Source of the DNA: an uncultured Pseudomonadota bacterium
GTDB lineage: Bacteria; Pseudomonadota; Gammaproteobacteria; Steroidobacterales; Steroidobacteraceae
Length of the DNA: 64,000 nt
NCBI GenBank assembly: GCA_903858165.1
Contig: CAIOHZ010000234.1
Coordinates: 1-64,000, forward strand
Direction of reading: 5' to 3'
Shown: positions 37,317-46,634 of the stretch, piece after piece
Position numbering within the stretch: position 1 is the stretch's first letter
How the letters are laid out: the number at the start of each line of letters is the position of its first letter
The notes under the pieces: model-generated
What the model was told of the DNA's origin: nothing
The model's database searches: none
Seen by the model: the letters and a program-made list of their open reading frames with translations, nothing else
Position numbers and translations under genes: made by a program

Positions 37317-38819
37317 ATGTTCGCTGCATTTCTGAATGTTTTGCGCCCCGCAGCTAGACAGCCCTCTAGCCAGTGGATGGCCGTCGTCATTTGTTGGCTC
37401 GGCATATCGGCCATCACCGCCGGTGCGGCCCGGGCAGACACTGCCGCGCAAGCACCAAGCCCTTCTACCGCAACTACGCCGCTCACCAAAGCCACTGCAC
37501 AATTGGTGGCGGAGGCCCTGCAGGCTAACCAAGGGCTACTCGCGGAACGCGCCGTCGTCGCGCGGCGCTTCGCGGAACTGGACCGTGCCCGCGCCCGCTA
37601 CCTGCCCAGCCTCGACTTTCAGGCCCGCTACACCCGCGCCGATGGCGGCCGCACCATCGAATTTCCGCTCGGCGACCTGCTCAACCCCGTTTACGCCGCG
37701 CTCGATGCGCAGTTGGTGGCCCAAGGTCGTCCGCCGCAGTTCCCGCGCGTGGCCAACCAAGAGTTCAACTTCGTCCGCTCGCGCGACCAGGAAACCACGC
37801 TTAGCCTCAACCAGCCGCTTTATGACGCGCGCCTCGGTGCCGGCCGTGACGCTGCCGATGCCGAGCTGCTGGCGTCGCAGGCAGCTACCCGCGCCTATGA
37901 ACAGCGTCTGGCCCGTGACATGAAGCAAGCCTACTTCCAATGGCTGCGCGCCCGTGCCGGCGTGGTCGTGGTGGGCGAGACGCAGCAGTTGGCGGCGGAA
38001 AACCTGCGCATCAACGACAGCCTTTTCCGCGCCGGTAAGGTGACGGAAGACCGCGTCTTCCGCGCCCGCGCGGACTTGCTCGAAGTAGAACAACAACTAC
38101 TGAGCTTGAACAATGCAGCCGGCCAACTGCAGGCCTACGTGAATACACTGCGAAGCCAGCCGGGCACCAACGCCCTGCCCGAAGCAATCCCCACGCTGGA
38201 AGATCTGGCGCTGGCGGACAGGCGCGAGCTGGGCACCGGCACGTTGCAGGAGGCGGCGCTCGGCGCGCGTGCCGAACTGCAGCAACTCGATGCCGCCATG
38301 GCCGGCGCCCGCGCCAGTGGCCGGGCCGCACGGGCGGCATTCAAACCCCAAGTGGGCTTGCAGCTCGTCAGCGGCATTCAAGGCACGAGTTATGGCTTCT
38401 CCGCCGACGAGCGCTTCGTGCTCGCTTCCGTGGTGGTGAAGTTCAACTTGTTCTCCGGTGGCGCGGACCGGGCAGCACTGGCCGCGTCCAGCGCGCGGCT
38501 CGATGAAGCCCGCGCGCGTCGTGAGGAAACGGCGTTCCTGGTGCGCATGGAAGTGCAGCAAGCGGTAGAGGACTACCTGGTGCAACGCGCCGCGCTGCGC
38601 ACCGCTGAAGAACGCGTGACCGCGGCACAAGGCGCGTTCCGTATCGTTGCGCGCAAGCGCGACCTCGGCTCCGCCAACCAAGCTGAATTCATCGACGCCC
38701 GCCGCACGCTAACCGAAGCGCGCCTGAACATCGACAACACCCGCCTTGCCGCGCTCGCGGCACTAACCCAGCTCGACTATGCACTGGGCCAAGCAGTTTC
38801 GAAGGAAGCCACGCCATGA
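37317..38819 (+). CDS. TolC-family outer membrane efflux protein
   Basis: 500 residues with signal peptide (VVICWLGISAITAGAARA; ATG at 37317, alternative 37377). Two outer membrane efflux protein repeats: LQANQGLLAERAVVARRFAE with YLPSLDFQARYTRADGG, and AFKPQVGLQLVSGIQG with VVVKFNLFSGGADRAALAAS. It forms the outer membrane channel of the tripartite pump whose adaptor and RND transporter follow; the stop overlaps the adaptor start by four bases. Confidence 0.92.
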   Translation: MFAAFLNVLRPAARQPSSQWMAVVICWLGISAITAGAARADTAAQAPSPSTATTPLTKATAQLVAEALQANQGLLAERAVVARRFAELDRARARYLPSLDFQARYTRADGGRTIEFPLGDLLNPVYAALDAQLVAQGRPPQFPRVANQEFNFVRSRDQETTLSLNQPLYDARLGAGRDAADAELLASQAATRAYEQRLARDMKQAYFQWLRARAGVVVVGETQQLAAENLRINDSLFRAGKVTEDRVFRARADLLEVEQQLLSLNNAAGQLQAYVNTLRSQPGTNALPEAIPTLEDLALADRRELGTGTLQEAALGARAELQQLDAAMAGARASGRAARAAFKPQVGLQLVSGIQGTSYGFSADERFVLASVVVKFNLFSGGADRAALAASSARLDEARARREETAFLVRMEVQQAVEDYLVQRAALRTAEERVTAAQGAFRIVARKRDLGSANQAEFIDARRTLTEARLNIDNTRLAALAALTQLDYALGQAVSKEATP

Positions 38820-42973: not shown

Positions 42974-43828
42974 ATGAAGATTCGTGAGCTAGTTCGCTTC
43001 CCCAAAAAGCCACTATTCATGGTCTTTGGCAGAGTGAACTCGCTCGCGACAGCCCGCGGTTTCATTCTGGGGGCGAGCTTGCTTGCCGCAGTAGTGCTCG
43101 CCGCAGTGAGCTGCGCCAACCTGCCGAGCAGGTCTGTATCTGTGCCTGTGCCTGTGCCTACGCCTGCGACCGAGCCAACTTCGGCTACGGTGATGCCTGC
43201 GCCGGCGGCGCCATCCACCGCCCTGCAATTGCACGACGGCGACAGTCGCATCGAGTTGCGTCTGGACCCTGCGGGTCCTCTGGCGCGTCTCGGGCATCGC
43301 CATGTCATTGTCACGAAAGCCGTGCTTGGCGCAGCCAACTTCGACCCGACCGACCTAACGAAAGCGTACTTCAGTGCTGCCTTCCCGGTGAAGACGCTCG
43401 AGGTAGACCTCCCAGAGGAACGCGCCGGGGCTGGCGAGGGCTTCAACACCGCTCCCGATGCCGCGGCCATCGCCGGTACGCGCGAACACATGCTTTCACC
43501 CGCGCTGCTCGACGCGGAGCGATTTCCGGAGATAGGGCTACGCCTGCAACAACTGGCTACCGTAGAACCGACCGCTGGAACCTTCCTCGCGACGGTGGTG
43601 TTCACCGTAAAGGGCGGGGAATTTGTGCGACCGCTGACTGTGACGGTGCGCGCGCTCGATGCAGAAAGTGTGGATGGAGACCGCAACCACCCCAGCTACG
43701 TAGCAAGCGGCACATGGACCGTCACCCATGCAGAACTGGGACTGATGCCCTATAGCGCAGCAGGAGGCTTGCTCAAAGTGGGCGACCCTATCGAAGTTCG
43801 TTTCCATCTGGTGGCCAAAGCCCGCTAG
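42974..43828 (+). CDS. YceI-like lipocalin-fold protein
   Basis: 284 residues starting three bases after the RND gene. A hydrophobic segment with a possible lipobox (LAAVSC, Cys47), a Pro/Val-rich linker with repeated VPVP, then a YceI-type domain: RIELRLDPAGPLARLGHRHV, YFSAAFPVKTLEVDLPEE, FNTAPDAAAIAGTREHML and FTVKGGEFVRPLTVTVRA. YceI proteins bind amphiphiles such as polyisoprenoids in the periplasm. Its place in the pump operon suggests it hands over or senses a lipophilic pump substrate; that is inference. Confidence 0.8.
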   Translation: MKIRELVRFPKKPLFMVFGRVNSLATARGFILGASLLAAVVLAAVSCANLPSRSVSVPVPVPTPATEPTSATVMPAPAAPSTALQLHDGDSRIELRLDPAGPLARLGHRHVIVTKAVLGAANFDPTDLTKAYFSAAFPVKTLEVDLPEERAGAGEGFNTAPDAAAIAGTREHMLSPALLDAERFPEIGLRLQQLATVEPTAGTFLATVVFTVKGGEFVRPLTVTVRALDAESVDGDRNHPSYVASGTWTVTHAELGLMPYSAAGGLLKVGDPIEVRFHLVAKAR

Positions 43829-43852: not shown

Positions 43853-44146
43853 TCAATGCCGGCGGATATCCACGCTTTGCGTAGTGGCGTCGTAGACAAT
43901 ATGCGCATCGCCTTTGCGCAATTGCTGCTCCACATGGGCTACTTTCTCGTCGAGCGTGTAGTCACGTTCGCCGTACTCAGTGCCTTCGCGCAGCACGAAC
44001 GCCTCAATGACGGCGCGCAACAATTCCGCAGGCAGGTCCTCCGGCGGCACGAGCACCGGTTCCGCTGGAGTGTCATCCGCAGAACCCGCGACGCCATAGC
44101 CCGGCACACCGTCGTCATCGTCTGAATCAGGCGCTTCGTTGTTCAC
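43853..44146 (-). CDS. yheU: YheU family protein (UPF0270) with acidic N-terminal extension
   Basis: 97 residues, GTG start that overlaps the oxyR stop (GTGA). The C-terminal 60 residues match YheU: VPPEDLPAELLRAVIEAFVL, REGTEYGERDYTLDEKVAHV, EQQLRKGDAHIVYDATTQSV. The N-terminal 30 residues (NNEAPDSDDDDGVPGYG) are an acidic extension not usual for the family, whose members have about 70-75 residues. Function is unknown. Co-translation with OxyR may place it under the oxidative stress response. Confidence 0.85.
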   Translation of the reverse strand: MNNEAPDSDDDDGVPGYGVAGSADDTPAEPVLVPPEDLPAELLRAVIEAFVLREGTEYGERDYTLDEKVAHVEQQLRKGDAHIVYDATTQSVDIRRH

Positions 44147-45039
44147 GGCTTGGTTGCCACGGCCTTGGCCAACACGCTATTGACCATCTCGATGGCGGGT
44201 CGACGGGTGGAACTGCGACGCCACACGGTACCCACAGACCGCCCCGGCTGAGGGTGGGTGAATGGTTTCGTCACCAGCGTCTTGCTCGCCGCAAACGGAC
44301 CTTCCGCTGCCAGTTTTGGCAACAAGGTAATGCCAAGTCCGGAGCCCACCATCTGCCGCAACGTCTCGAGACTCGTAGCGCGGAAGTCCGCTTCCTCATC
44401 CACGGCCAGCAGGCTGCACACTTCCAACGCTTGGTCACGCAAACAGTGCCCATCCTCCAGCAACAGCAATTTTTCGCCGTGCAGTTCGGCGGGCTTCACC
44501 ACCTTTTGCTTGGCGAAGCGGTGTGTGGCGGGCATGGCGACCAGAAAAGGCTCCTCGTAAAGTACGCAGCTATCGAGGCCTTCCTCGTCGGCGGGTAGCG
44601 CCAGGACCGCCATGTCCAGTTCGCCGATGCGGAGCTTCTGCAGCAGCGGACGCGTTTGGTATTCAAACAGCAGCAACTGCAGTTTCGGCAAGGCCTTGCG
44701 CAACTTGTGCATGACGTGGGGCAGAAGATACGGGCCGATGGTGGGGATAAGCCCAACACGCAACTTGCCGGCCAGCGGGTCGCGCGATAGGTGTGCCAAA
44801 TCGACAATGTCGTCGGTGTCGCGAATGACGCGCCGCGCGCGCTCCACCACTTCTTCGCCAGCGGCCGTCAGTGCCACATTGCGCGGCTGCCGCTCCACCA
44901 AAGCGACCCCGAGATAGTCCTCGAGCTTCTTGATTTGCGCCGACAGCGTGGGCTGGCTAACGAAGCAGCGCTCCGCCGCCTTGCCGAAGTGACGGGTGTC
45001 CGCGAGGGCCACGAGGTATTTCAGATCACGCAGATTCAT
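44143..45039 (-). CDS. oxyR: Hydrogen peroxide sensor/regulator OxyR (LysR family)
   Basis: 298 residues from the ATG at 45039. The LysR helix-turn-helix is MNLRDLKYLVALADTRHFGK with AERCFVSQPTLSAQIKKLE. The peroxide-sensing cysteines are at positions 199 and 208 (EDGHCLRDQALEVC), the same numbering as in E. coli OxyR, so disulfide activation is expected. The coinducer domain keeps IPTIGPYLLPHV and the tail LPKLAAEGPFA. The downstream yheU gene is translationally coupled. A symmetric site lies just upstream (45071-45106), and beyond it a divergent candidate small RNA. Confidence 0.95.
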   Translation of the reverse strand: MNLRDLKYLVALADTRHFGKAAERCFVSQPTLSAQIKKLEDYLGVALVERQPRNVALTAAGEEVVERARRVIRDTDDIVDLAHLSRDPLAGKLRVGLIPTIGPYLLPHVMHKLRKALPKLQLLLFEYQTRPLLQKLRIGELDMAVLALPADEEGLDSCVLYEEPFLVAMPATHRFAKQKVVKPAELHGEKLLLLEDGHCLRDQALEVCSLLAVDEEADFRATSLETLRQMVGSGLGITLLPKLAAEGPFAASKTLVTKPFTHPQPGRSVGTVWRRSSTRRPAIEMVNSVLAKAVATKP

Positions 45040-45070
45040 GGGAAGGCTCCGGCGGCACGATACGCACAGC

Positions 45071-45106
45071 CTATCGGTTCGATTCGAACAATCGATTGGA
45101 ACGATA
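45071..45106. promoter_or_regulatory. Nested dyads upstream of oxyR, candidate OxyR site
   Basis: GTTCGATTCGAAC (45077-45089) and AATCGATT (45090-45097) are perfect palindromes, and TATCG (45072-45076) mirrors CGATA (45102-45106). Also TCGATTCGAAC and TCGATTGGAAC repeat directly at 45079 and 45092. The match to the OxyR ATAG-N7-CTAT pattern is only partial, but the place, 32-67 bases before oxyR, suits autoregulation and divergent activation. Confidence 0.45.
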
Positions 45107-45111
45107 ACGGG

Positions 45112-45226
45112 AGCGGCAGGATGATGCAACCACTGGCCGGGCACCTTCCATCCCCTTTAGCCCGGCCGCTTTGGCCCGCGGGTTCCTGTATCGCGCAAAG
45201 GCGCAGGGGCGCCGCGGGTTTTTTTT
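45112..45226 (+). ncRNA. Candidate OxyS-like small RNA divergent from oxyR
   Basis: The gene-free strand opposite oxyR holds a possible -10 (GATAAC, 45103-45108), then a perfect 8-base stem GGCCGGGC (45135-45142) / GCCCGGCC (45160-45167) with the 17-base C-rich loop ACCTTCCATCCCCTTTA, and an intrinsic terminator ending in eight T (45200-45226). The predicted transcript is about 110 bases. Position and size match E. coli OxyS (109 bases, divergent from oxyR, OxyR-activated), although no sequence likeness to OxyS is claimed. The loop could pair with Shine-Dalgarno sequences. The start is inferred, and no reading frame here looks coding. Confidence 0.4.
45200..45226 (+). terminator. Intrinsic terminator without an upstream plus-strand gene
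   Basis: GGCGC (45200-45204), loop AGGG, GCGCC (45209-45213), then GCGGG and eight T (45219-45226). It works only for plus-strand transcripts, yet the nearest genes on both sides are on the minus strand. This supports a small RNA transcribed from the oxyR upstream region. Confidence 0.6.
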
Positions 45227-45257: not shown

Positions 45258-46634
45258 TCAGGCCAGCTTCGCGCGCAGGTCGTAGGTGTCCGCGCCCGTA
45301 ATCTCCACTTCCATGAATTCGCCGACGCGGGCCGCTGCCAAGGCGCGCGAACCGCGTACGCGCACTGTGCCGTCGATATCCGGCGCGTCCGCATAGCTGC
45401 GCGCAATGACAGTACTGCCCTCAATGGCATCCACTAGCACCGTGAGTTTGCGACCCACCTTTTGCTGCAAGCGCGCCGCGCTAATCGCGGCGGCCTTGGT
45501 CATAAAGCGCTCGTAGCGCTCTTGCTTCACTGCCTCGGGCACCGGGTTTGGCAGCGCATTAGCGGGCGCGCCTTGCACGGGCGAATACTTGAAAGCACCG
45601 ACGCGGTCGAGTTGGGCCTCGTCCAGCCAGTCGAGCAGGACCTGAAACTCTTCTTCAGTCTCGCCAGGGAAGCCCACGATGAAGGTGCTGCGCACCGCTA
45701 GGTCCGGCACTTCACGGCGCCAGGCCTTCAGGCGTTCCAGCGTGTTTTCGGCATGGGCGGGGCGCTTCATGCGCTTGAGCACGCTCGGGCTGCCGTGCTG
45801 AAACGGAATATCGAGGTAGGGCAGTACCTTGCCCGCGGCCATCAACGGAATGACTTCATCCACATGCGGGTACGGGTATACATAGTGCAGCCGCACCCAC
45901 AACGGCTGGCCGTCGCTGCCCGGGCCTTCCGCCAATTGGCCTAGTTCGCGCGCCAGGTCGATGAAGCGGGTACGTACTTCGCGGCTGCCCCATTGCTCAG
46001 CCCGGTACTTCACATCCACGCCGTAAGCGCTGGTGTCCTGGCTGATGACCAGCAACTCGCGCACGCCGGCATTGCGCAGTCGAATGGCTTCATTCAAGAC
46101 ATGCGGCAAGGGGCGGCTGACTAGGTCGCCACGCATGGACGGAATGATGCAGAAGCTGCAGCGGTGGTTGCAGCCCTCGGATATTTTCAGGTAGGCGTAG
46201 TGGCGCGGTGTGAGGCGAATACCCTGCGGCGGCACCAAGTCCAGAAACGGATCATGCGCGGGGGGTAGATGCTCGTGCACCGCGTCCATGACTTCGTCGA
46301 AGGCATGGGGGCCGGTAATCTTAAGCACCTGCGGGTGGCGCTCAAGAATCTGCTCCGGACGCGCGCCCAAGCAGCCGGTCACCACCACCTTGCCGTTCTC
46401 GCGCAGCGCCTCGCCAATGGTGTCGAGGCTCTCGTGCACGGCGTCGTCGACGAAGCCGCAGGTGTTCACTACCACCAAGTCGGCTTGGTCGTAGGTGCCC
46501 ACCACCTCATAGCCCTCAGCCCGCAGCCGGGTAAGGATCTGCTCGCTATCGCTGGTGGCCTTGGGGCAGCCCAGGCTGATAAACCCGACTCGAGGGATGA
46601 CCCCTGCTGCGCCTATCCGGTATCCTTCGCTCAT
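45258..46634 (-). CDS. rimO: Ribosomal protein S12 methylthiotransferase RimO
   Basis: 458 residues from the ATG at 46634 (GAAGGG seven bases upstream). RimO adds a methylthio group to Asp89 (E. coli numbering) of ribosomal protein S12, using two 4Fe-4S clusters and SAM. UPF0004 domain: [32 protein letters not shown] and [15 protein letters not shown] give the three cysteines; radical SAM CxxxCxxC is [20 protein letters not shown]; a C-terminal TRAM domain follows. Its start codon shares the tetramer CATG with the divergent dapF start. Confidence 0.95.

Follow-up and report, generated by a model that had tools for sequence, protein, structure and literature searches.

A candidate OxyR-activated small RNA gene in the peroxidase slot divergent from oxyR

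OxyS is the textbook example of a peroxide-responsive RNA, and represses fhlA, nusG and other genes with the assistance of Hfq. It was reportedly concluded by Krieger et al. in 2022 that OxyS arose from the mRNA of a peroxidase. Homologues of OxyS are described from 10 genera of the enterobacterial clade, all of them upstream of oxyR, the gene sitting divergently in the 5' intergenic region of oxyR (PMC5793797). Krieger et al. (2022) is cited for OxyS in PMC11975290. A different kind of RNA, sX13 of Xanthomonas, uses CCCC-containing hairpin loops to repress mRNAs that carry G-rich motifs at or near the translation start, and does so without a need for Hfq (PMC3771888). Among the matches listed in a search of the open-access literature (titles and the beginnings of abstracts, with subscription papers outside its scope), there was no sRNA divergent from oxyR outside the enterobacteria.

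Here we describe a candidate sRNA gene divergent from oxyR in another lineage. The window, which is the whole stretch of 64,000 nucleotides analysed, is part of genome G000 (3.38 Mb in 307 contigs, 99% complete), one of the four species sampled (G000 to G003) of a genus here called g1, in family f1. The features of the locus are as follows, in coordinates of the window; L003 and L002 are the corresponding loci of two other species of the genus.

44146-45039, minus strand: oxyR, LysR family, containing DGHCLRDQALEVC; its best NCBIfam match is the OxyR model
45060-45096, plus strand: OxyR box of 37 bp facing the RNA; for oxyR, on the opposite strand, it is immediately upstream as well; found with a matrix and kept in L003 and L002
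45096-45101, plus strand: -35-like element TTGGAA at the end of the OxyR box; its TGGA is kept in peroxiredoxin promoters
45120-45125, plus strand: -10 element GATGAT, at bases 24-29 after the box; CATGAT in L003 and L002
45132-45226, plus strand: predicted sRNA of about 95 nt, from promoter geometry, terminator, fold and conservation; the predicted 5' end is accurate to within a few nt
45135-45167, plus strand: stem-loop 1, with an 8-bp stem and a 17-nt loop ACCTTCCATCCCCTTTA that includes the invariant CCATCCCCTTTA; putative target-binding loop
45175-45226, plus strand: intrinsic terminator, with a hairpin at 45175-45218 and T8 at 45219-45226; kept in three of three species
45258-46634, minus strand: rimO (TIGR01125, 547 bits), the end of which adjoins the RNA gene

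The product of oxyR matches the OxyR model with 311.6 bits (E 5e-93), which is slightly below the model cut-off of 329, and it is 93-98% identical to the OxyR proteins of L002 and L003. We take its DGHCLRDQALEVC to be the motif with the redox cysteines. The alignment with the oxyR genes of near relatives begins at the ATG at 45039, and the longer frame starting at a GTG was therefore not used. The closest plus-strand genes are a frame of 284 aa that ends at 43828 and, beyond rimO, dapF.

The arrangement is close to that of OxyS in E. coli, which is likewise divergent from oxyR. The OxyR box is 21 nt from the oxyR ATG here and 22 nt in E. coli, where the box was placed by its best match (14/16) to the consensus. 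In both, the -10 element lies at bases 24-29 after the box, with the sequence GATAAT for E. coli oxyS. The 5' end of the RNA is predicted at +36 after the box here, compared to an annotated +38 for E. coli oxyS, and the predicted length of about 95 nt compares with an annotated 117 nt for OxyS in E. coli. Both end in a terminator with eight T. Unlike OxyS, the RNA here consists of one C-rich stem-loop plus the terminator, and its far neighbour is rimO, whereas E. coli oxyS has argH beside it. The Rfam model for OxyS (RF00035) has no match in the window at the gathering score and none in the oxyR-rimO gap at E values up to 10, while the positive control on E. coli gives 139.5 bits. The longest sequence shared between this RNA and E. 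coli OxyS is 8 nt, and this is the T run. The original prediction of an OxyS-like RNA is supported for position, promoter and regulator, with box and -10 element arranged as at katG and ahpC, in 19 peroxiredoxin promoters of the family and at E. coli oxyS. None of the tests used here makes it an OxyS by descent.

No Rfam family reaches its gathering score anywhere within the window. At E values up to 10 there are matches in the gap to Xoo2 (13 bits, cut-off 45), anti-hemB (12.6 bits, cut-off 49.5) and tsr24 (9.3 bits, cut-off 50), all of which were taken as chance. The sX13 RNA resembles the present one in having CCCC in a hairpin loop; it has three C-rich loops, compared to one here, and neither an Rfam match nor other evidence speaks for shared descent.

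The stem of stem-loop 1 is formed on the plus strand by GGCCGGGC at 45135-45142, which pairs with GCCCGGCC at 45160-45167, the loop ACCTTCCATCCCCTTTA lying between them at 45143-45159. The eight-base stem, the C-rich loop and the T8 terminator, on the plus strand between the minus-strand genes oxyR and rimO, are all exactly where they had been predicted to be. The length is a different matter. An RNA of about 110 bases with a 5' end near 45112 had been expected; the promoter geometry of the peroxiredoxin loci and of E. coli oxyS instead gives a predicted 5' end near 45132 and a length of about 95 nt. For the 116-nt span that starts from the earlier 5' end, the fold has a z score of -1.4. With the new bounds, the 95-nt RNA has z scores of -3.2, -2.8 and -3.9 in the three species compared. 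The 17-nt loop with its CCCC is the longest unpaired part in the folds, and is open. A consensus terminator scan finds three terminator-like sites in 3.5 kb, against 2.4 expected from shuffles. Judged on its sequence, the site is unremarkable by itself and is more than chance once relatives are compared. Its significance comes from the comparison.

The comparison used the two other species that were found with oxyR adjoining rimO, namely L003 (contig G001:C4) and L002 (contig G002:C164). Over the stretch that begins with the OxyR box and ends with the terminator stem, the gaps of the window, L003 and L002 align without insertions or deletions; at the T run, L002 has one additional base. Both species keep the promoter, the stem with its loop, and the terminator. 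A lack of conservation in relatives sharing the oxyR neighbourhood had been named in advance as grounds for rejecting the original prediction; both relatives keep the stem and the terminator, and with compensatory changes. Pair 29-59 is G-C in the window, T-A in L003 and G-C in L002, and pair 30-58 is C-G, C-G and T-A in the same order. Compensatory changes are thus present in two of the eight pairs of stem 1, while L003 has lost the pairing at 28-60. In the stem of the terminator there are three one-sided changes, all of which still pair. Overall, pairing is found in 98.7% of 75 cells, compared to 37-47% when the partner is slid. In column shuffles the covariation score is reached in 57 of 500, the counts being small with only three related sequences. 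The loop segment CCATCCCCTTTA is invariant in all three species.

The predicted RNA is also more conserved than fourfold-degenerate sites. Its identity between the window and L003 is 88/95 and between the window and L002 84/95 (88-93%), whereas the fourfold-degenerate sites of oxyR and rimO are identical at 307/413 and 276/399 positions, respectively (69-74%; Fisher p 2.5e-5 for L003 and 5e-5 for L002). After the T run, the identity drops to 28/51, 23/31 and 24/51 (47-74%). The substitutions in the RNA region are spread 5, 5 and 5 over the codon positions of a frame that starts with ATG, and there is therefore no coding signature in this region.

OxyR had been expected to bind at palindromes upstream; the predicted OxyR site was placed at 45060-45096. 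Boxes of 37 bp that resemble it lie upstream of katG in G001, G002 and G003, and upstream of an ahpC-like gene in G000. (It is worth adding as a separate observation that KatG, of peroxidase family PF00141, has no match in G000, which is rated 99% complete, while the other three species of the genus have a katG with an OxyR box.) A matrix was constructed from four strings, these being two katG variants and the single ahpC box entered twice, with the box of the window left out. Over 127,928 window positions on both strands, this matrix ranks 45060 first, with 31.4 bits; the next position has 13.1. Scored by the general E. coli consensus for OxyR alone, this site reaches 12/16, as does one other plus-strand position in the window.

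The promoter can be compared in more detail with 19 promoters of peroxiredoxin genes. In these, TGGA comes right after the box (T in 19, G in 16, G in 18 and A in 15 of the 19), and the -10 element is at bases 24-29, with A25 and T29 invariant in 19/19. The promoter in the window fits this pattern, with TGGA, GATGAT at bases 24-29, and then GC. A 68-nt promoter matrix was built from the 19 peroxiredoxin loci, in which the boxes were placed with the first matrix. It gives 44.5 bits at 45060, while the next-best site in the window, on either strand, has -6.4. Taking the parts of this matrix separately, the -10 element in the window scores 9.5 bits, against a mean of 8.4 for the 19 loci, and the box 29.4 against 50.8. 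A consensus promoter scan found no sigma-70 site at the RNA locus. The box and the -10 element are placed as in OxyR-activated genes of the lineage, and OxyR is predicted to bind here.

In relatives, the place of the RNA is often taken by a gene for a peroxidase. We analysed 66 oxyR loci outside g1 from 23 genera, comprising the 26 best OxyR matches outside g1, which came with loci, and 40 chosen across genera. A peroxiredoxin gene diverges from oxyR in 19 of these 66 family loci, which represent 12 of the 23 sister genera; it was counted if its protein had over 70% identity to the peroxiredoxin of L069, a locus that is itself included. These genes have the same box, the same -35 and -10 geometry and the same orientation to oxyR as the RNA, but they encode a protein. 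In L140 the divergent position is taken by an apparent katG and in L173 by an apparent ahpC, in each case behind a strong OxyR box. Using a threshold of 18 bits, which was picked after the scores had been seen, a box is found in 16 of the 66 loci; 15 of them have a divergent peroxidase-type gene, and none was seen in L086. Six of the 19 peroxiredoxin loci (L137, L143, L151, L161, L169 and L170) score lower, at 11-15 bits.

At E 1e-15, none of the four g1 genomes, of which G001 is only 75% complete, yielded the sister-genus peroxiredoxin. This search gave only an AhpC-type match of 34-35% in G000, G001 and G003, and none in G002. Plus-strand terminators within 450 bases of oxyR were found in none of 40 family loci (L134 being shorter than this span); in 73 other loci, some of which are the same contig under two ids, a plus-strand terminator near oxyR appears weakly in two, L070 and L091. 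No relic of a peroxiredoxin was found in the body of the RNA (blastn, best E 0.12), and for this reason descent of the RNA from a peroxiredoxin mRNA cannot be claimed.

The promoter, on the other hand, is very probably inherited from an ancestral arrangement of oxyR and peroxiredoxin. That this arrangement is ancestral is something we infer from its spread over genera and not from a tree. We put at about even the chances that, after g1 lost its OxyR-driven peroxiredoxin, the promoter that was kept came to drive an unrelated sRNA, in a second and independent birth of an OxyS-type RNA. If the claim of Krieger et al. for OxyS is right, the RNA described here would be a parallel case: a peroxide-responding sRNA would again have replaced a peroxidase gene beside oxyR, in another lineage and with an unrelated RNA in which no homology to the peroxiredoxin gene was found.

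A covariance model of the RNA, R1, was used to analyse its distribution. It finds the RNA in G000, G001 and G002, in other words in three of the four g1 species, and nowhere else above chance. There are four matches in 200 family genomes and three in 396 order genomes (1 of 72 genera), the filters being strict ones that may lose weak matches. The fourth family match, of 25.8 bits in G130, falls inside an apparent uvrD coding sequence and was rejected, as was one of 19.2 bits at 37640-37771 of the window, which has no T run. The apparent uvrD (L095, on G130:C13, bases ~190-1260) has by eye an intein-like insert, with CLAAGTAV...VHNS between helicase motifs. The RNA is absent from G003 even when R1 is run with lenient filters, the best match (15.8 bits, E 1.1) being rejected. 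In this species oxyR follows an apparent ArsR-type regulator gene, and rimO is beside an apparent acyl-CoA ligase gene. The exact 17-base loop pattern was not found in viral contigs.

It had been suggested that the loop could block Shine-Dalgarno sequences, and this role is a guess. With one mismatch allowed, TAAAGGGGATGG occurs at 6, 1, 6 and 7 places in G000 to G003, which is below the reversed control (11, 11, 10 and 15). Three of these 20 places are the RNA gene itself, and none of the other 17 is just upstream of a convincing gene start on the same strand. The pattern RRRGGGGRTGG is found in 16, 6, 13 and 28 places in the same genomes, against 14, 8, 13 and 18 for the reversed control, and is clearly above the control only in G003, the species without the RNA. 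The places examined for this pattern were 13 of 16 in G000, 6 of 6 in G001, 12 of 13 in G002 and 8 of 28 in G003. One match, L195 in G002, is just upstream of the possible start of a frame of at least 501 codons; we do not claim it as a target because the pattern did not show this match in G000 or G001. Matches common to G000, G001 and G002 (L193/L198/L214 and L207/L182/L205, L182 not being among those read) were rejected: the gene next to them starts on the opposite strand, and its leader therefore carries the C-rich version and not the complement of the loop. The loop-complement searches turned up no convincing target in the genus, and in the three RNA-bearing species the counts do not clearly exceed the reversed control.

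It can be noted separately that the 5' leaders of L133 and L186 (ahpC-like), and those of L193, L198 and L214, contain sense-strand stretches similar to CCACCCCCTCT or CCATCCCCTT, which are like the loop of the sRNA and not like its complement. The leader of L193/L198/L214 precedes an apparent gene for formate-tetrahydrofolate ligase, and the stretch is found there in three species. These C-rich stretches may reflect coincidence or a common binding motif.

The simplest account of the locus is an OxyR-activated sRNA in the slot of a peroxidase gene. We think it probable that this is a lineage-specific sRNA gene which acts in trans via its loop, in parallel to OxyS. Other readings have to be weighed against it. 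It is conceivable, if unlikely, that the box is kept for autoregulation of oxyR, or is left over from a lost peroxiredoxin promoter, while the terminator shields rimO and the RNA itself has no function. The box is indeed also 21 nt from the start of oxyR, the terminator sits just before the 3' end of rimO, and a peroxiredoxin occupies the slot in many relatives; yet stem-loop 1 is unnecessary for termination, and nevertheless has a stem with compensatory changes and an invariant loop segment, and the -10 element is kept as well. A cis-antisense function would have the RNA pair with a fully complementary read-through mRNA from rimO into oxyR, and so tune oxyR. The consensus terminator scan finds no terminator-like site of rimO's own in the oxyR-rimO gap, and oxyR comes next on the same strand. 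However, an RNA that is complementary over its whole length would not need a stem or loop to be conserved, and the compensatory pattern points to a folded RNA, which makes this function decidedly improbable.

The remaining alternatives are the least likely. A true OxyS, diverged from the enterobacterial RNA, would account for the same place, the nearly identical promoter geometry and the similar length, but we consider such descent highly improbable in the face of the RF00035 and sequence comparisons given above; moreover, the RNA looks recent, because R1 finds it in only one of the 72 genera of the order. We give hardly any credence to a short-peptide leader or mRNA. The ATGATG at 45121-45126 does open a frame through the region, but this frame runs without a stop through the terminator, the even spread of substitutions over its codon positions speaks against it, and the ATGs fall within the predicted -10 element, before the RNA begins. 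That the hairpins are merely chance in G+C-rich DNA would fit with terminator-like sites being about as common in shuffles, and with the z score of -1.4 obtained with the first bounds; against the conservation and the promoter evidence, this is most improbable.

For the preferred reading, that of an OxyR-activated sRNA, the following mechanism is proposed. Peroxide would oxidise OxyR, and the oxidised protein would bind the 37-bp box at 45060-45096, recruit polymerase and activate the divergent promoter with its -10 element at 45120-45125. An RNA of about 95 nt would then be transcribed, starting near 45132 and stopping at the T8 terminator, which ends at 45226; this short and very stable RNA would accumulate. 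It would consist of the stem-loop with the constant C-rich segment CCATCCCCTTTA, followed by the terminator hairpin; its eight-U tail would also suit Hfq. The RNA most likely acts in trans, probably via the CCCC loop. The loop would pair with purine-rich ribosome-binding sites, such that translation of the target mRNAs falls under peroxide stress. This pairing is a step that we infer, since the target searches found nothing convincing. The role of the RNA would be like that of OxyS, and the chemistry of its loop like that of sX13.

If the promoter was indeed taken over in this way, the oxyR-divergent promoter would be a slot where regulatory RNAs repeatedly replace peroxide-scavenging genes. 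The genus would then provide a concrete case in which an sRNA was born on a reused promoter, and 12 of the 23 sister genera sampled still show what is presumed to have been the ancestral state, a divergent peroxiredoxin. More than one origin of the circuit of OxyR plus an sRNA would follow from an unrelated RNA that occupies this slot, under the same kind of promoter, in a different lineage.
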